Shown: positions 2,172-43,009 of the stretch, one piece after another | Numbering within the stretch: the first letter of the stretch is position 1 | Layout: each line of letters starts with the position of its first letter | The notes under the pieces: model-generated | Told to the model about the DNA's origin: nothing | The model's input: only the letters and a program-made list of their open reading frames with translations | The model's database searches: none | NCBI RefSeq assembly: GCF_026929975.1 | Contig: NZ_JANHOK010000005.1 | Span: forward strand, 62,001 to 126,000 | Direction: 5' to 3' | Length of the DNA: 64,000 nt | Source: Bartonella sp. F02 | GTDB lineage: Bacteria > Pseudomonadota > Alphaproteobacteria > Rhizobiales > Rhizobiaceae | Position numbers and translations under genes: made by a program

Positions 2172-3620
2172 TTATGGAGTGGTTTCTTGAAGAGGATCAA
2201 TATTAAAATCAAAACCTTTTCCCCACAAGTCATATTGGTTCCGTGGAAGGTCTGCGTAAGGTTGGCACGCAAAGACAGCTGCATAGACTTGTCGTTTCAT
2301 GATCGCTTGCAAGCTTTCTTCTCCACTCAAAGGTTCAATAAGAGGTTCGCCTATAATCATTCCTTTGCGGTTTAAGTAAAACTGCAAACGAACAATGGGA
2401 CGGTTATTTAAATTCCCACCGATAGCAACAAGTTTCAGCTTTTTTTGAATACAGGAACCAGCAAGGCTCACTAATGTTTGCGCCATTTTTGTGGTGTCAC
2501 CAATATTTTTGCGTGCGCCGGATGCCTCTGGATTGGTGGAGCGTTTTGCTCCTCCTCCTTGGGTGCGCATCCGATTGAGAAAATTTTTTTCTTCAAGTGC
2601 TAGAATATCGTCAATTGTCTTTTCATTGCGTTTTTGAGGTGAAGGAGAAGAGTGTTTCACAAATTTTTGTTTACTTTGTGGAAGAGGAGGATTTTCTGGA
2701 TGCTCAATTTTTGGAGCTGGTTTATGTGTCGATGGTTTTTTAGAAGGCACTTTTGGCGTGATGGATTCTGCTTTTTGAGGTTGTGGTTTGATAGGATCTG
2801 GTCGCTTTGGAGATGTTTCTAGCGATTTTGGTTGTGTTTGTGAGGGTGTTAATTTCTCTGGTGAGGTTTCGATAGGGGTGAAAGGTTCTTCCTGAGAGGT
2901 GGTTTCATTTTCCTCTGATGGAGCAGGGGGTGTATCAATTTGGTGTGGTTTTTCTTTTGGCGTTTGAGGTTCTTTTGAAGGTTCTGGAGGGGTGATTATA
3001 TCATTGTGAGCAACCTTGGAAGAAACATCTGTTTTCGTTTCTTGTAAGTCTTTTGTAGAGTGAGATGACTCTGATGTTTCAGGTGCAGCCTTTTCCTCTG
3101 ATGGAGCAGGGGGTGTATCAATTTGGTGTGGTTTTTCTTTTGGCGTTTGAGGTTCTTTTGAAGGTTCTGGTGGGGTCATTATGTCATTGTGAGTAACCTT
3201 GGAAGAAACATCTGTTTTCGTTTCTTGTATGTCTTTTGTTGTGTGAGATGACTCTAGTGTTTCAGGTACAACCTTTTCCTGCGATGGAGCCGGTGGTGTA
3301 TCAACCTGACGCGGTTTTTCTTTAGGTTTGAAAGGGGAAAGAGTATCTACTGTTCCATCACCAACATGCTGTGCATTTTCTTTTTCTTGTGGTTTTGTGG
3401 TTGGTTTGGGGGCAGGATGTTCCTTGAAAGGAGCCTGGAGCAAACCTTGTTGTAAGGCAACTTCTTCATTAAGAGGGGCTAAGGTGATGGGAATGGTGTC
3501 GAGTGGTTGTGGTGAAAAGGGAATAGGATTGGTGAGATGCATTCCCATCAAAATGAGAAGAATGAGATGCACTGTCAAAGATAAAACTAAGGCTCGTTTC
3601 ATGCTATGATGAGAATTCAT
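2172..3620 (-). CDS. tolA: TolA, inner-membrane spanning linker protein with internal repeats
   Basis: TolA links the TolQR motor in the inner membrane to TolB/Pal. A membrane segment lies at about residues 9-29, followed by a very long Pro/Lys/Glu-rich periplasmic arm (about 60-340) and a C-terminal TonB/TolA-like domain (about 370-482) with the family's paired cysteines. Two full 61-residue tandem repeats plus a partial third occupy residues 101-238. An alternative start (MKRALVLS) lies six codons inside. The gap to tolB is 55 bp, so the genes are probably cotranscribed. The arm varies in length between species, so the repeat is likely structural. Confidence 0.93.
2907..3320 (-). repeat. 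183-bp tandem repeats in tolA
   Basis: Two complete 183-bp units and a 48-bp partial unit encode near-identical 61-residue blocks starting EKP(R/H)Q(V/I)DTPPAPS and ending [10 protein letters not shown]. The frame is preserved, so copy-number change would lengthen or shorten the periplasmic arm without breaking the gene. Confidence 0.9.
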
Positions 3621-36746: not shown

Positions 36747-37016
36747 GATGTATACCCTCCAATGGATTGCTTGTGTTGTTATTTTTCAAAAAATGAACAT
36801 TGTTTGAATTGTAAAAATGCGCTGTTGAGAGCAAAAAGCATGCATTTTTAATAAGAATTGAATGTGTAAAAGGTTTTTAAGATCTGAAACTTTCTGTGAG
36901 AAGAACTGGTCTCCTAAGGGAGATTTTGTTTTTGAATTAAAAAAGATACGTTTATGGGCTTCACCAGAAGGTCTCTTTGGAATCAAAAAGCATTTTGAAG
37001 AATCAAAAAAAAGCTT

Positions 37017-38939
37017 TTATGGAACGGCTTGTGAAGGAAGTGAAGATTCTTGACAGAGAGCCGAGGTAGGGGGTGTTGAGGTTGGCATGGTGTTGGTTGC
37101 CAAGGGGTGAGGTTGAATGGGCTTGGGAGAGGTGGCATATTTTTGTTCTCGCTCAATATAGCGGCGTGGCCATGGCGTATTGTCAGAAGAACAACGATAG
37201 CGATAAGTCTTGGAGTCAAACCAAAGACCAACTTTCCCTTCAAAATCGCCAGAACGCTGTTTGGCGATATTGATAATAACACCAGGGCGTGTTGATAATT
37301 GTGCTTTTTCTTCTGGGTGATGGGCGGCAAAAATCTTGTCCTCTAAAGAACGATTGCGCCAAATTGTAATAATGTTAAAGGCATTGGCGCCAATTTCTGA
37401 GGCTCCTTTAATGTCTTCTGTGCCAGGAATATCTTTCTCTAAACCGCCTTTGCGGGCATGCGCGACAAGGTGAATATGAACAGCATTTAAAATGGCCCAA
37501 TCAACTAATTTATAAACCGCTTGTTCTTGCCCTGTATAATCGTCTGAGGCGATCCCTAAACGCATTAAACTGTCAATGATAAATTGATCGCAGCCATATT
37601 TTGCACGGCAATAATCAAAAACATCAAGTAAGGCATCAACATTTGATTTCCCGACATGTTCATAAAGAATAAGACCCTTGTCCAAAAAATGTAAAATACG
37701 CTCAATCATCTCGGGAGTTGGCTGTTCTAAGCCTCCCGTTTGTTTCGTTAAACGGCGCAAAGATTGTTCTCCCTTCATTTCTAAGGAGGCTAAACAAAGA
37801 CGGCTCTTTTGCGCAATCCAATGCGGAATACAGTCGGATAAAAGCTGGCTTTTGCCCGCTCCACTGGCGCCACTCCACAGGGTTAATTCCGATGGACGAA
37901 AATAAAGTTTGCCATTCAATTTCGGGTAAGGAACCGTATATCCTTGATGCTCTTCAGCTGTAGGCCAGAAGAGATGGATGATTTTGTCTTTATAATCTGA
38001 GGCACGGTGTAACCCTTCTGGCGTAAAATTTTGCGCTTGGGAAAAGGCTGTTGCGAGTGTTTTTGCATCAAGACCAGCACGCAGACAATCATTGGCATCT
38101 TTATGAGGAAGGTGGACACGATAACAACGGTGGCGCCCAAGACGATGAGCAATCTCAAGAGCCGCTTCTTCTCCTGGTTTGTCCATATCTGTGGCTAAAA
38201 AAATTTTCTCAAAAGACTCTAAATGGTCAAATTCATTTTCAATCCAATTGTGTTTGCCTCCTTTTCCCCCGCCAAACGGTAATGAAACAGCTGGGTAGCC
38301 ATAGGCCGCTAACGAAAGAGCATCAATTTCGCCCTCTGTAATCACAATTTCACGACTCTTGGCACATAAAGCCTGCCAGCCAAATAAAATGGGTTCACAC
38401 TGAGAAGCTGTGGGTTTTGCTTTCGCACCAGATTCCGCTAAGCGCTCTTTGACCAGAGCAAGTGTGCCATCCGGTTTATAAAACGGAAAAACAATCTTCT
38501 TGCCATTTTCTTGAATTCGGTAACGCTTGATAATGTCTAAGGGAATCTGACGCTCTTTCTCTAAATAGGTTTTAACCCAATGTTTCGGTTCTCCCCCCGT
38601 GGGAAGAGGAGCAGGGCGATAAAGATGACGTGGCGCCATAAAGGGCTTAGGGCGAGAAAGATTAAGGTATGCACGTGCTTCTTCTAAAGCTTGAGGAAGA
38701 CTAATCCCTTTCACCGCACACCAAAGATCTAAAAGATCCCCACCGCTCCCTTCTGCAAAATCATACCAAAAACCGGATTTCTGCCCACTTAAGCAGACCG
38801 ATAAACTTTGACCAGCCTCACCGCGTGTGCTGCCGACAATCCAATCATTGCCGCGTTTGCGTCCTTGAGGAAGAAGCATGGCTGCAATCGAGCCCGCTTG
38901 GGATGAAAGCTTTTCTTTGATCTCAAAAATTGTACTCAT
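37017..38939 (-). CDS. phage-type primase-helicase (TOPRIM plus RecA-like ATPase)
   Basis: 640-residue replication protein in the style of T7 gp4/Twinkle. The N-terminus holds a degenerate zinc-binding primase region without the cysteines. A TOPRIM domain follows (ITEGEIDALS near 198, ATDMDKPGEE near 245). The C-terminal DnaB-like helicase has Walker A SGASGAGKSQ near 355, Walker B QFIIDSLM and ITIWRNRS. It starts 10 bp after the DUF1376 gene, so the initiator-like and helicase functions are cotranscribed. It likely unwinds and primes at the module's own origin. Confidence 0.88.
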   Translation of the reverse strand: MSTIFEIKEKLSSQAGSIAAMLLPQGRKRGNDWIVGSTRGEAGQSLSVCLSGQKSGFWYDFAEGSGGDLLDLWCAVKGISLPQALEEARAYLNLSRPKPFMAPRHLYRPAPLPTGGEPKHWVKTYLEKERQIPLDIIKRYRIQENGKKIVFPFYKPDGTLALVKERLAESGAKAKPTASQCEPILFGWQALCAKSREIVITEGEIDALSLAAYGYPAVSLPFGGGKGGKHNWIENEFDHLESFEKIFLATDMDKPGEEAALEIAHRLGRHRCYRVHLPHKDANDCLRAGLDAKTLATAFSQAQNFTPEGLHRASDYKDKIIHLFWPTAEEHQGYTVPYPKLNGKLYFRPSELTLWSGASGAGKSQLLSDCIPHWIAQKSRLCLASLEMKGEQSLRRLTKQTGGLEQPTPEMIERILHFLDKGLILYEHVGKSNVDALLDVFDYCRAKYGCDQFIIDSLMRLGIASDDYTGQEQAVYKLVDWAILNAVHIHLVAHARKGGLEKDIPGTEDIKGASEIGANAFNIITIWRNRSLEDKIFAAHHPEEKAQLSTRPGVIINIAKQRSGDFEGKVGLWFDSKTYRYRCSSDNTPWPRRYIEREQKYATSPKPIQPHPLATNTMPTSTPPTSALCQESSLPSQAVP

Positions 38940-38949
38940 CTTGATGCAC

Positions 38950-40338
38950 TCAATAATTGATCAGACTTTGGTAAAGCATGTCTTCATTTGTGTTGCGGGA
39001 CCGGTTTTGGGCAGAAGAAGAAAGAACAGACAATTTTTCACGATTGTCTTGTAAACGCTCAATTTCACGCCGGAACCAGTTGCGCCATGTGGCTTGCCAG
39101 TCAACTTTCAAAGCATCTTTGCCACTTTTCGCATGCCAATAGTCACGAAATTTCTTTTCTTGCCAACGCGCTTGCTCTTCACTCAAACCTTCTGAAATTG
39201 CTGCACCAATATCCGCACGCCAATCAAGAGGCAGTCTTTGCCCTTTCGGCGATTTTTCTGAGCGTGGGCGTTTTGGTGAACCCATCGCTGTTGGAGAAGA
39301 AAGATCCACTGTTGAGGAGGAAGATATGGAAGAAAATTCCGCAGAAACGCCCGTGTGATCTTGAACAACAAGAGCTTGAGGCGTTGCTTGCGCTGAAGAG
39401 GAAAGAGTGGCGCAAGAGGAAATTGGCTCGGAGTTGCAATCTCTCGATGGTGCCAAAAGAGACGCAGAGCAGAGATCAGGGCCTTGGGAGATACCTTGAG
39501 ACAATCCTTGAGAGGGGTTTTGAGAAGAGCCTTGGGAGAGACCTTGAGACGAGCCCAGAGACGAGCCTTGGGAGAGACCTTGAGAGAGGGCTTGAGAGGG
39601 GGCTTGAGACGAGTTTTGAGACGAATCTTGAGGCGAGCCTTGAGAGAGGGCTTGAGAAGAGCCCAGAGACGAGCCCAGAGACGAGCCTTGAGAGAGGGCT
39701 TGAGAGGAGTTTTGAGACGAATCTTGAGACAAGCCTTGAGAAGGGTCTTGAGACGAGCCCAGAGACGAGCCTTGGGAGGTGTCGTTTGTGGGCGTCAAGG
39801 GAGAAGAAAGCAGTTCAGATCTCTCTTGAGACAACGAAAAAAAAGATCGTTTTTTGGAAACACCGTAAGGTGTTTCTTTTTCTCCTCCCTTTTGAGCTTC
39901 TGAGTTATGTGTCTCATCTCTTGGGTAATTGTTAGAGAGCTGTTCAAAAGTCGTATTGATTTTCTTACGTTTTTTGGCAGAGGCGTGCCCCGCATAGGAT
40001 TTTTTCTTAAGCAATTGTGCACGCTCTTCAAACACATGGCCACAGCGTTCATTCCAAAGTCCATTCGCTAAATTCAAAATCTTTCCTTCTGAAATGAGCA
40101 TTTCTAAAACGGTCACAAAAGTCCGCTTGTCACAACCGCAAAGACGCGCTAAACGCTCTTCTGATAAGTCAAGAGGACGGCCACGGGCATAAATTTCATT
40201 GAGTAAAATCGTGTAAATACCAATTTCATGTGCACGCATGCCGCGGACACCCCCAAGAAAATCATTTTGGTACCAACAAACATAAGGAAGTGTTGATGCT
40301 TCATAAGAAGGAGTTTCTGATGTATGATCGTGTTTCAT
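38950..40338 (-). CDS. DUF1376 replication-initiator-like protein with repeat array
   Basis: 462-residue protein. Residues about 17-115 form the DUF1376 domain (LPYVCWYQNDFLGGVRGM, then a winged-helix-like region), typical of phage replication proteins akin to lambda O. Residues 187-286 are 25 tandem tetrapeptides of the SQGS/SLGS/SQAL type, encoded by 12-bp repeats. The C-terminus (about 370-440) is a charged helical domain with LDWRADIGAAISEGLSEEQA and KVDWQATWRNWFRREIER. First gene of the minus-strand replication operon. Confidence 0.82.
   Translation of the reverse strand: MKHDHTSETPSYEASTLPYVCWYQNDFLGGVRGMRAHEIGIYTILLNEIYARGRPLDLSEERLARLCGCDKRTFVTVLEMLISEGKILNLANGLWNERCGHVFEERAQLLKKKSYAGHASAKKRKKINTTFEQLSNNYPRDETHNSEAQKGGEKETPYGVSKKRSFFSLSQERSELLSSPLTPTNDTSQGSSLGSSQDPSQGLSQDSSQNSSQALSQGSSLGSSLGSSQALSQGSPQDSSQNSSQAPSQALSQGLSQGSSLGSSQGLSQGSSQNPSQGLSQGISQGPDLCSASLLAPSRDCNSEPISSCATLSSSAQATPQALVVQDHTGVSAEFSSISSSSTVDLSSPTAMGSPKRPRSEKSPKGQRLPLDWRADIGAAISEGLSEEQARWQEKKFRDYWHAKSGKDALKVDWQATWRNWFRREIERLQDNREKLSVLSSSAQNRSRNTNEDMLYQSLINY
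39481..39780. repeat. 25 x 12-bp tandem repeat (iteron-like array)
   Basis: Exactly 25 consecutive 12-bp units fill 300 bp. The plus-strand consensus is close to GCCTTGAGACGA, with variants such as GCCCAGAGACGA and GTTTTGAGACGA. Some larger groups are repeated, for example the unit pair GCCTTGAGAGAG-GGCTTGAGA. The frame of the surrounding gene is preserved. Confidence 0.95.
39857..39881. other. 8-bp hairpin next to the repeat array
   Basis: GAAACACC (39857-39864) pairs with GGTGTTTC (39869-39876) around the loop GTAA and is followed by a T run. It lies inside the DUF1376 gene, 77 bp from the repeat array, within a local A/T-rich stretch. Such a structure could belong to a replication origin. 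Confidence 0.6.
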
Positions 40339-40809
40339 GAGACAATCAGCTTTCTTGTGTTTTGATCGATTTTTGTTTAAAAAAGAATCTGAAACACTAG
40401 CGTCGTGCGTTTTGAAGCATGAGACCGCAATTGATCGTTGGATAAAGTGTAAAGTATTTCAGATTTGTTTCGTTTTTTTCTTTGTTATTGTGTTCGATAC
40501 GTTTTCTGTTTGCGCGTTTTTATCAAATTTGCTCGTTCTTTATAAATACTCTAATATCTGTCGATTGCAATTTTAGGTTGCATCTATAAAAAAGAGTAAA
40601 TAATACAATGTGGGAGATGCGTAAGATTATGAGCACCTTTCTGCATCTTTGGAATTGGTGAAGTGTTTTGTAACCTAAAAATGAGGCTGTATCTCCCCTT
40701 AAAAATTAAGTTTTATTGTATTGAGTGTATATCCTCTTTAAAGGATATTTTCAAGTCAATTTTATAAAAGAAGATGTATTTTTAAAAAGACAAGTTATAT
40801 GGTGAGACT
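40339..40809. other. divergent regulatory region of the replication module
   Basis: About 470 bp between the DUF1376 gene (minus) and the Xre repressor gene (plus). It contains an operator-bearing promoter at 40721-40749 and a 9-bp inverted repeat, TTTTAGGTT at 40571-40579 and AACCTAAAA at 40672-40680, which could bind a dimer at a distance or fold. Confidence 0.6.
40721..40749 (+). promoter_or_regulatory. promoter with built-in operator, in front of the Xre gene
   Basis: TTGAGT (40721-40726), 17-bp spacer and GATATT (40744-40749). The near-palindrome TCCTCTTTAAAGGA (40732-40745) fills the spacer and touches the -10. The same design appears at 41349-41376, so a shared repressor, probably the Xre protein, is inferred. 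Confidence 0.6.
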
Positions 40810-41127
40810 ATGAAGATTGATGGTTGGCGTCAAAGATTAAACAAAGCAGTCGAAAAAAGTGGACGGTCAAAACGATCCATTTCTCTTGCTGCTGGTAAAG
40901 GAGCGGGATATCTTCATTCCATTCTCAGTGAAGGAAAAGATCCAACAATTGAGTCGCTTTCGGATGTCTGTCATGTCATTGATATTAATATGAGTTATAT
41001 TCTTTATGGATATGATGCAAGTTCTGAAGATAAAGAGTTTATTGCTCTAATTTCAAATCTTTCTCCTGAGGAACGGCAGGCAATTTTGACTCTTTTGCGT
41101 CGATCACATGCCGAAGGAAAAGAATAA
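40810..41127 (+). CDS. Xre-family helix-turn-helix repressor
   Basis: 105-residue CI-like regulator. The helix-turn-helix covers about residues 15-50 (SKRSISLAAGKGAGYLHSILSEGKDPTIESL), and the rest is a short dimerisation tail without a LexA-type peptidase domain. It stands alone and divergent from the replication operon. Operator-like sequences lie both upstream and in the next promoter, so it probably controls itself and the module. Confidence 0.82.
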   Translation: MKIDGWRQRLNKAVEKSGRSKRSISLAAGKGAGYLHSILSEGKDPTIESLSDVCHVIDINMSYILYGYDASSEDKEFIALISNLSPEERQAILTLLRRSHAEGKE

Positions 41128-41188
41128 TTTCTTTTTGTGTTTGCACATCAAGATTGCTCCAATAGTGTATTAATTTAAAATCATTCAT
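41039..41188 (-). CDS. possible small antisense gene overlapping the repressor 3' end
   Basis: A 49-codon minus-strand frame (starting MNDFKLIHYWSNLD, polar and helical) has an unusually strong ribosome site, GGGAGGA, 6 nt before its ATG, and TATACT about 30 bp further upstream. It overlaps the last 89 bp of the Xre gene in antisense. The site argues for translation; the overlap and lack of a recognised family argue for caution. Confidence 0.35.
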   Translation of the reverse strand: MNDFKLIHYWSNLDVQTQKEIILFLRHVIDAKESKLPAVPQEKDLKLEQ

Positions 41189-41348
41189 TTTAGTCCTCCC
41201 GTCTACTTGCGGTTGCTTGGAGTATAAGAACATATAGAGAGCAATACGAAACAATAAGCGAATAAAATACCCAAGACTCTTTTGCTCATTGCTGCTGTTT
41301 GAATGTCATAAAAAGTAAAAATTTATCTTTTATTAAAGATAAAAATAA

Positions 41349-41444: not shown

Positions 41445-41834
41445 ATGAACAAGATTGCATTCGTTAAAGAGGATGAAGTGTTGGTCATCATTTGTGAACA
41501 AGAGGAAAGTGGGGCTTATAATGGCCCAATCGAACAAGCAGAAGAGGTGCTGGAAATTGTGGAAGAGCATGACACTGTGCAAAGACTTTTAAGACTCGAT
41601 TTGAAAACACTTCACGCCGATGATGTGAGTGAACAGTTGGCCGATGTGTATATGCAAAATCATGAAATTCACGCATATAATAATGAATTTCAACCGTTCA
41701 TTCTCGAGAGTGATGCGTATCATATTTATCTCGATAAAAAAAATGCACGGGACTATGAAGATAGGCGATACGGTTCTTATGAACAGCAACATCGTTTGCG
41801 CTCATGGGATGTTTTGGCAGATTATTGGGGGTGA
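41445..41834 (+). CDS. hypothetical phage-module protein
   Basis: 129-residue acidic protein beginning MNKIAFVKEDEVLVIICEQE, with no signal peptide or membrane segment. AAAGGGA lies 8-14 bp upstream and a strong operator-controlled promoter 70 bp upstream. I do not recognise a family. Its place between repressor and exonuclease suggests an early function of the replication module. Confidence 0.65.
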   Translation: MNKIAFVKEDEVLVIICEQEESGAYNGPIEQAEEVLEIVEEHDTVQRLLRLDLKTLHADDVSEQLADVYMQNHEIHAYNNEFQPFILESDAYHIYLDKKNARDYEDRRYGSYEQQHRLRSWDVLADYWG

Positions 41835-42187: not shown

Positions 42188-43009
42188 ATGCCTGTGATTA
42201 TGGATTGTATTCAAGGAACACATGAATGGCGACAAGCGCGCAATGGTTTAATAACAGCATCTTTGTTTGAAATGATCATGGCTCAAAAGAAAAATGGTCA
42301 GAAAACACAAAAATATCATGCCGTCATGATGAAACTGGCTGGAGAAAAAATCACTGGGACGTATGTGGATGAAGGAACAACCATTCCCATGCGACGGGGA
42401 ACAGAATTAGAACCAAAAGCACGCCAACTTTATGGATCACTTACCCAGACAGAGCCCCAAACAATTGGATTTGTTTTATCCGATGATCGAAAAAAAGGTT
42501 TTTCTCCAGATGCTTTTATTGGAACAGACGGGATCTTGGAAATTAAAACAAAAAAACCTGAACTGTTAATCCCTTATTTTGATCAAAATACTTTTCCGGC
42601 GGAACATAAAGCACAGTGTCAGGGAGGATTATGGATTGCACAACGCGAATGGATCGATTTGATGATCTATTGGCCAGATATGCCGCTTTTGATTAAGCGA
42701 GCTTATCGCGATGAAGCTTATATTCGTAAACTTGAAAATGAAATAAGCCGGTTTAATGAGGCTTTGGACAGGATGGTGCATAAAATTAAAAATGCCGATA
42801 CAAAAATCATCAAACAGGAGAGCAGAAAAAGGCAAGGCGAAAGAGACGTTTGTACAGAAGAGAAAAGCTTGGAAGAGAGGCAGAGGAGTCCAAAACGGCA
42901 AACCTATAGAAAAGGTCGCGCAGGAGTACAAAGATTAACGGTAAGCCCGAAGAGGAGAAAAATAAAAAATTATGGAATGTGGATGAAAAATCTTAGAGAG
43001 TGGTCGTGA
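42188..43009 (+). CDS. YqaJ-type (lambda-exonuclease family) recombinase nuclease
   Basis: 273-residue protein. The first 200 residues carry the YqaJ/PD-(D/E)xK pattern: GTHEWRQARNGLITAS, RRGTELEPKARQLY, the catalytic FSPDAFIGTDGILEIKTKK and HKAQCQGGLWI. Such enzymes resect DNA ends for phage recombination or replication. The last 70 residues are Lys/Arg-rich and unlike the family; an alternative frame is open there, so a late frameshift is possible. It ends 50 bp before tRNA-Thr. Confidence 0.85.
   Translation: MPVIMDCIQGTHEWRQARNGLITASLFEMIMAQKKNGQKTQKYHAVMMKLAGEKITGTYVDEGTTIPMRRGTELEPKARQLYGSLTQTEPQTIGFVLSDDRKKGFSPDAFIGTDGILEIKTKKPELLIPYFDQNTFPAEHKAQCQGGLWIAQREWIDLMIYWPDMPLLIKRAYRDEAYIRKLENEISRFNEALDRMVHKIKNADTKIIKQESRKRQGERDVCTEEKSLEERQRSPKRQTYRKGRAGVQRLTVSPKRRKIKNYGMWMKNLREWS

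Follow-up and report, generated by a model that had tools for sequence, protein, structure and literature searches.

The window analyzed here comprises 64,000 nucleotides of the Bartonella sp. F02 genome (contig NZ_JANHOK010000005.1, positions 62,001 to 126,000). At 38950-40338, on the minus strand, it encodes a 462-amino-acid phage replication initiator or primosomal protein (PF07120, 3.2e-13; phrog_3992, 2.3e-37; phrog_1408, 3.8e-9), the product of gene 4 of the Bartonella run-off replication (ROR) module. The protein consists of a DUF1376 domain, detected by a profile match and winged-helix-like in the structure model (residues 18-99; 40042-40287, minus strand), a linker, and a C-terminal domain that, by a phrog match, resembles a phage "replication initiation protein" (residues 336-448; 38995-39333, minus strand); residues 349-427 show 48% identity to Mycobacterium phage proteins. 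Given that the DUF1376 profile score is 50.3 bits, against a cut-off of 30.1, and that a primase-helicase gene adjoins, the gene 4 product belongs to the DUF1376 phage replication initiators. Profile and phrog matches identify the product of the gene after gene 4 (37017-38939, minus strand) as a Toprim primase/DnaB-like helicase, in agreement with the preliminary description of this DNA, which had called it a primase-helicase; the helicase next to gene 4 has been named a Twinkle homologue (PMC2697382). On the other side, divergent from gene 4, there is a helix-turn-helix regulator-like gene (40810-41127, plus strand; weak phrog and NCBIfam matches), which lies upstream of gene 4 in every one of the 57 orthologous loci. 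It is followed by a conserved ROR hypothetical gene (41445-41834, plus strand; phrog_23448), shared by 55 of the remaining 56 loci, and by the YqaJ/lambda-type exonuclease of the module (42188-43009, plus strand; PF09588, 9.9e-17). The ROR gene set, that is, exonuclease, hypothetical, regulator, gene 4 and phage helicase, is complete here.

The gene 4 orthologue of one genome in our set (G006) starts at 1397835 and is 1059 bp long, the values given by Guy et al. 2013 (PMC3610622) for B. australis BAnh111110, and therefore we equate the open reading frame in the window with the "gene 4" of that account. Among 71 genomes of the genus, 59 match the first 130 residues of gene 4, and 57 of these represent the ROR orthologue, with at least 77% identity; merging 97 loci by protein identity yielded the set of 57 distinct orthologous proteins used below. 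The intergenic region between the regulator-like gene and gene 4 is 471 bp long and A/T-rich, and contains 10-mers that, on either strand, are common to up to 43 of the 57 loci. An inverted repeat read from the sequence of this divergent region, TATCCTCTTTAAAGGATA (40730-40747), is possibly an operator of the neighboring regulator-like gene. A related repeat was spotted by eye in the corresponding intergenic region of another locus (L081).

A lambda-O-like origin inside gene 4, with palindromic structures and a dip in G+C content, has been proposed previously, with the lambda ori inside gene O invoked as the model (Guy et al. 2013, PMC3610622); the gene, the module and the proposal of an in-gene origin are the same as those considered here. 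In the B. grahamii strains as4aup and af165up, DNA amplification was found to peak here, close to or within the helicase gene that adjoins gene 4 (PMC2697382), and bidirectional amplification from this site was shown for other Bartonella species (PMC2697382, PMC3483213). In the relevant parts of the published accounts, the run-off origin is placed only at the level of a gene or a region (PMC2697382, PMC3610622), and the section text on the BaROR locus, figure aside, gives no palindrome sequence, conservation count or link to other phages (PMC3610622).

The preliminary description assigned the origin to a tandem array in the linker. Unit reading and Tandem Repeats Finder indeed delineate a degenerate array of 25 contiguous, in-frame 12-bp units that encode S-Q-x-x (39478-39777, minus strand), so that only the originally given boundaries, 39481-39780, are 3 bp off; the array spans residues 188-287 and thus lies, as described, between the DUF1376 and C-terminal domains. 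Overlapping Tandem Repeats Finder rows for the array score from 53 to 207, and because the program reports the array, we rejected chance as its explanation. The 25 units comprise 18 different words, in which columns 2 and 4 are invariant whereas the rest vary at both silent and non-silent positions. An alternative period of 96 bp (2.8 copies, 81% match) is as expected from duplication of blocks of units. Inside the array, we found no inverted repeat with arms of at least 7 bp and a loop of up to 8. In the AlphaFold model, pLDDT is below 50 for most of linker residues 164-338, and about 37-49 over the array segment when taken in ten-residue blocks. A separate 183-bp tandem repeat (2.3 copies, 91%) is located at 2908-3323 of the window, away from the gene 4 locus.

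The comparison of repeat copy number across relatives that the preliminary description suggested leaves the array isolated: its DNA is found in one of the 71 genus genomes and the S-Q-x-x peptide run in one of the 57 orthologues, with the proviso that one orthologue (L054) is not fully judgeable owing to a 1312-base run of N in its linker. Tandem Repeats Finder detects no tandem array in gene 4 of B. grahamii ATCC 700132 (L047, the same protein as L012) and reports no row for gene 4 of L081. Because the B. grahamii gene lacks the array, run-off replication in this species apparently needs none, amplification having been measured in other strains of the species, as4aup and af165up; replication of the module in relatives without the array was the very observation that the preliminary description held to speak against its proposal. 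What endures of that proposal is the locus, namely, a phage-type initiator, gene 4 of the ROR module, for which an in-gene origin has been published, but not the array as the origin.

Repeats as such are common in this part of the gene. Tandem Repeats Finder rows were obtained for 13 of the 57 orthologues, the window's own among them, and include in-frame linker arrays unrelated to the one in the window: 11.5 copies of 27 bp (L090), 2.8 copies of 183 bp together with 7.3 copies of 15 bp (L074), 4.8 copies of 18 bp (L061) and 2.0 copies of 132 bp (L065), with L049 bearing repeats as well. Linker length ranges from 57 to 317 amino acids, as measured in the 53 of 57 orthologues in which both anchors were found. 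The gene 4 linker is thus prone to in-frame expansion across Bartonella species. The array itself appears to be a tandem expansion, in frame and private to the species, of the disordered linker between the DUF1376 and C-terminal domains, rather than a set of iterons; we consider this reading, jointly with that of the hairpin described below as the mark of the run-off origin, slightly better than an even bet. Two other peculiarities of gene 4 sequences were noticed. The frames of L059 and L067/L029 have atypical C-terminal ends without the L-Y-x-x-L-I-N-Y tail and are possibly frameshifted copies. The proteins of two closely related genomes, L096 and L066 (B. bacilliformis Ver097), are ~60 residues apart, a difference that, under the script-chosen start, lies mostly in a stretch rich in S, P and A before the DUF1376 domain.

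The preliminary description also mentioned a GTAA hairpin near the array, and this element is the one that conservation among the orthologues brings out as a candidate origin recognition element. The hairpin, GAAACACC-GTAA-GGTGTTTC (39857-39876), with the loop TTAC on the coding strand, lies where the linker begins, about 460 bp into gene 4 and ~80 bp away from the array. Its coding-strand form is AAACACC-N4-GGTGTTT, contained in codons for K-E-T-P-x-G-V-S. Pairing of the inner 7-bp arms is perfect in all but one of the 57 orthologues, L063 (B. clarridgeiae), which has one T-G pair. The codons ACA, GGT and GTT are each present in 57 of 57 orthologues and CCT in 55 of 57, whereas the loop codon comes in 12 forms; the eighth pair, read on the coding strand, is G-C in 37 orthologues, A-T in 8, G-T in 11 and A-C in one. 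All four fourfold-degenerate codons inside the hairpin reach an identity of at least 0.95, compared to 5 of 219 elsewhere in the five ROR genes (Fisher p = 1.3e-6), in a test that was centered on the palindrome and framed after the palindrome had been seen. A blind sliding-window scan of gene 4 for synonymous conservation did not single out the hairpin, and the top windows, at codons 56-66 and 150-160, failed to reach significance (permutation p of 0.24 and 0.35). The codon alignment left out 4 of the 57 gene 4 orthologues (L054, with its run of N, and L059, L040 and L067, with atypical ends) and, after sequences with non-ACGT characters were dropped, included 34 of 38 helicase, 57 of 57 regulator, 56 of 56 hypothetical and 40 of 41 exonuclease genes.

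The hairpin pattern occurs in 60 of the 71 genus genomes, 56 of them among the 57 gene 4-bearing genomes and 4 among the 14 that lack this gene. In 52 of the 56 genomes it is present in a single copy, and in the other four (G013, G036, G064 and G065) in two copies. Of five stray palindrome sites that we inspected, three (L389-L391) fall within an unrelated coding frame and two (L392 and L393) look, by eye, intergenic and terminator-like. A scan of 36900-41300 against Rfam yielded three matches, at E values of 2.7-3.5, all far below the gathering threshold.

Hairpins in the same place, with other stems, are present in the DUF1376 genes of Sinorhizobium phage phiLM21, Paracoccus phage Pkon1 and Bartonella prophages: GCTACGCT-TAGC-AGCGTAGC, GAAGAACC-TATC-GGTTCTTC and CTAAAAC-TATC-GTTTTAG. 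The phiLM21 protein, annotated as primosomal, and the Pkon1 protein, annotated as hypothetical, share a homologous N-terminal domain with gene 4 and, similarly, have a DnaB-type helicase neighbor and a hairpin with a TNNC loop; they differ from the Bartonella case in the stem sequences and in that the helicase is DnaB-like and encoded upstream. Diverged DUF1376 paralogues are numerous in Bartonella prophages (L104-L117, L262-L310).

Across the family, a perfect stem of at least 7 bp with a TNNC loop follows the DUF1376 domain in 45 of 128 non-identical genes. Of 117 inverted repeats, 60 have a four-base loop, which is TNNC in 45 cases. Grouping of 190 of the 194 family genes at 60% domain identity produced 54 clusters, of which 24 contained a TNNC hairpin with a stem of at least 7 bp; 200 synonymous-codon shuffles gave 0.6 clusters on average and never more than 3. 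When stems of at least 8 bp were required, 17 clusters had the hairpin, compared to 0.31 in the shuffles. In the remaining 30 clusters, which include E. coli K-12 ydaU, a stem of at least 7 bp with a TNNC loop was not seen. The density of these hairpins is 1.05 per kb in DUF1376 genes versus 0.029 per kb in other open reading frames of the same viral contigs, where 7 of 290 control frames contain one; a broader listing of 13 such frames, judged by eye, consisted mostly of DUF1376 genes that had been set aside as duplicates or as too divergent, along with overlapping frames. Among open reading frames with the C-terminal motif only, 0 of 19 carry the hairpin, after 3 of 22 that had it were set aside (by eye, two family copies and a fragment), although this set was made by motif and may include non-initiators. 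The hairpin, therefore, goes with the DUF1376 domain.

At least four A residues are found within the 8 bases before the stem in 36 of 42 distinct hairpins, and also after the stem in 30 of the 42. The mean G+C fraction of the stems is 0.40, and several have one or two G-C pairs out of 7-10. The first position outside the stem that does not pair is, in 40 distinct hairpins of the wider family, A-C in 19 cases, G-T in 3 and another combination in 18, a pattern that we interpret as the stem ending amid A-rich flanks.

Covariation was assessed in the Bartonella prophage paralogues, aligned on the peptide T-I-V-[LVI] and not on pairing. This peptide occurs in 46 of the 194 family genes, in 7 distinct segments, and the six innermost pairs are Watson-Crick in all seven. 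The third pair is T-A in 17, A-T in 22 and C-G in 7 of the 46 genes, counts that represent sequences and not independent events, and the Val codon (GTA, GTT or GTG) shifts synonymously along with the third-pair partner. Pairs four, six and seven vary as well, the first two of them in just a single segment, and pair seven is broken in one segment (3 genes). As judged from these alignments, the covariation shows a paired element but would not indicate on which strand the pairing occurs, given that a duplex palindrome bound by a dimer would covary as well.

Apart from an origin, the explanation that fares best is a role of the hairpin in the sense mRNA transcribed from gene 4, such as translational or decay control, with a UNNC tetraloop, and we regard this as unlikely. 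Such a role would fit the fixed loop and orientation relative to the coding strand: in a set of 30 distinct hairpins on which the TNNC loop was imposed, 28 share one codon frame and 27 have a C-G closing pair. It would also fit the excess of G-T over A-C at the eighth pair (11 versus 1), since this wobble is possible only in coding-strand RNA. The eighth-pair G-T of 11 of the 57 orthologues leans towards a folded sense RNA, or else the outer pair is irrelevant and may fall outside the functional stem. The inner seven pairs, which show one U-G in 57 orthologues, with none at the third pair of the 46 anchored paralogues, speak against an RNA element, and translation would unfold the hairpin. The eighth-pair counts led us to lower the estimates for the origin reading, for the shape-read type of origin considered below and for an antisense terminator, and to raise that for the sense mRNA.

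The antisense terminator, which would end transcripts that enter the gene on the strand opposite gene 4, we consider improbable. On the plus strand, the element reads as a hairpin with a GNNA loop followed by a run of T, and was flagged as terminator-like; an antisense T-tract accompanies 36 of 42 distinct hairpins, and two extra copies of the palindrome elsewhere, L392 and L393, look intergenic and like terminators by eye. The stems, however, are not G+C-rich (mean 0.40), 6 of the 42 hairpins lack the tract, and 30 of the 42 also have at least four A residues after the stem. Furthermore, the eighth-pair G-T of 11 orthologues becomes an A-C mismatch in antisense RNA, and the region contains 2 terminator-like matches, compared to 2.5 expected from shuffles.

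Somewhat less probable still is that the inverted repeat serves, as a duplex, as an operator for the initiator's own gene or for copy number control, with the origin elsewhere in the module, for example, in the 471-bp intergenic region. The winged-helix fold of the DUF1376 domain resembles regulators as well as plasmid initiators. A Foldseek search returned no match below an E value of 0.001, and a sequence search of PDB no relevant match; the structures 4pql, 4pt7 and 5kbj, presumably staphylococcal RepA_N-type plasmid initiators with iterons inside rep, match at the fold level only, with Z tied with CRP-type regulators. The conserved DNA words in the intergenic region would likewise suit an operator with the origin outside gene 4. 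A fixed TNNC spacer with changing half-sites is, however, the reverse of what an operator read by sequence would show, and the inverted repeat is placed some 460 bp into the gene.

A role of the array as a cluster of iterons that forms the run-off origin is very improbable, and we rejected the array as an origin of the lambda ori kind: even if, like the lambda iterons, it sits between two initiator domains, its units are not near-identical (18 variants among 25), it contains no dyads of the tested size (7-bp arms, loop up to 8), and it is not conserved in relatives, its DNA not being found in 70 of 71 genomes and the B. grahamii gene having no array.

We thus lean, at little above even confidence, towards the reading in which the hairpin at 39857-39876 marks the run-off origin of the module and the array is merely a private expansion of the linker. 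Most likely, to judge from its conservation and covariation, the hairpin would be the recognition element of the initiator at the origin. We infer that origin function would involve protein binding and melting, as follows: the DUF1376 domain would recognize, inside its own gene, the inverted repeat or a hairpin extruded from it, at a recognition site that would usually be single in the genome; the strand-biased A-rich tracts next to the hairpin would then melt, and the primase-helicase encoded by the next gene would be loaded at the melted site. In favor of the origin reading, we also counted the published amplification peak, located close to or within the adjoining helicase gene; against it, we counted the missing hairpin in 30 of 54 clusters, the null result of the blind scan, the eighth-pair G-T, and the terminator-like appearance of the A-rich flanks.

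In phage lambda, the origin is embedded in the initiator gene O, between the parts for DNA binding and for helicase contact, and the next gene supplies the helicase link. The arrangement in the window is similar, in that the origin candidate is within the initiator gene and the helicase function is encoded by the next gene. Lambda, however, has several similar iterons, whereas here a single hairpin is present, its loop conserved and its stem differing from clade to clade, and the loader is replaced by a primase-helicase. A broader possibility, which we put forward tentatively and consider rather doubtful, is that DUF1376 initiators use an undescribed kind of phage origin, consisting of a single hairpin within the initiator gene. 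The four bases of its loop would follow a constant pattern (TNNC on the coding strand and GNNA on the opposite one), its stem would covary freely, and recognition would depend on shape and not on sequence; Bartonella would have domesticated such an origin as the sole chromosomal start of run-off replication that feeds the gene transfer agent.

We found no description of a family-wide TNNC hairpin in DUF1376 genes in the literature searched, a limited collection covered at the level of titles and abstract openings. This hairpin is what the present analysis adds, given that an origin within gene 4 has already been published and that origins inside initiator genes are a known kind. Setting aside the 12-bp array disposes of a tempting but probably wrong origin candidate, and the hairpin, 20 bp long, usually single-copy and conserved in the genus, offers a well-defined site at which to aim mapping and binding experiments. 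Any phage that encodes a DUF1376 initiator can be screened for the same element. For Bartonella, the position of the origin matters because run-off replication biases the cargo of the gene transfer particles.
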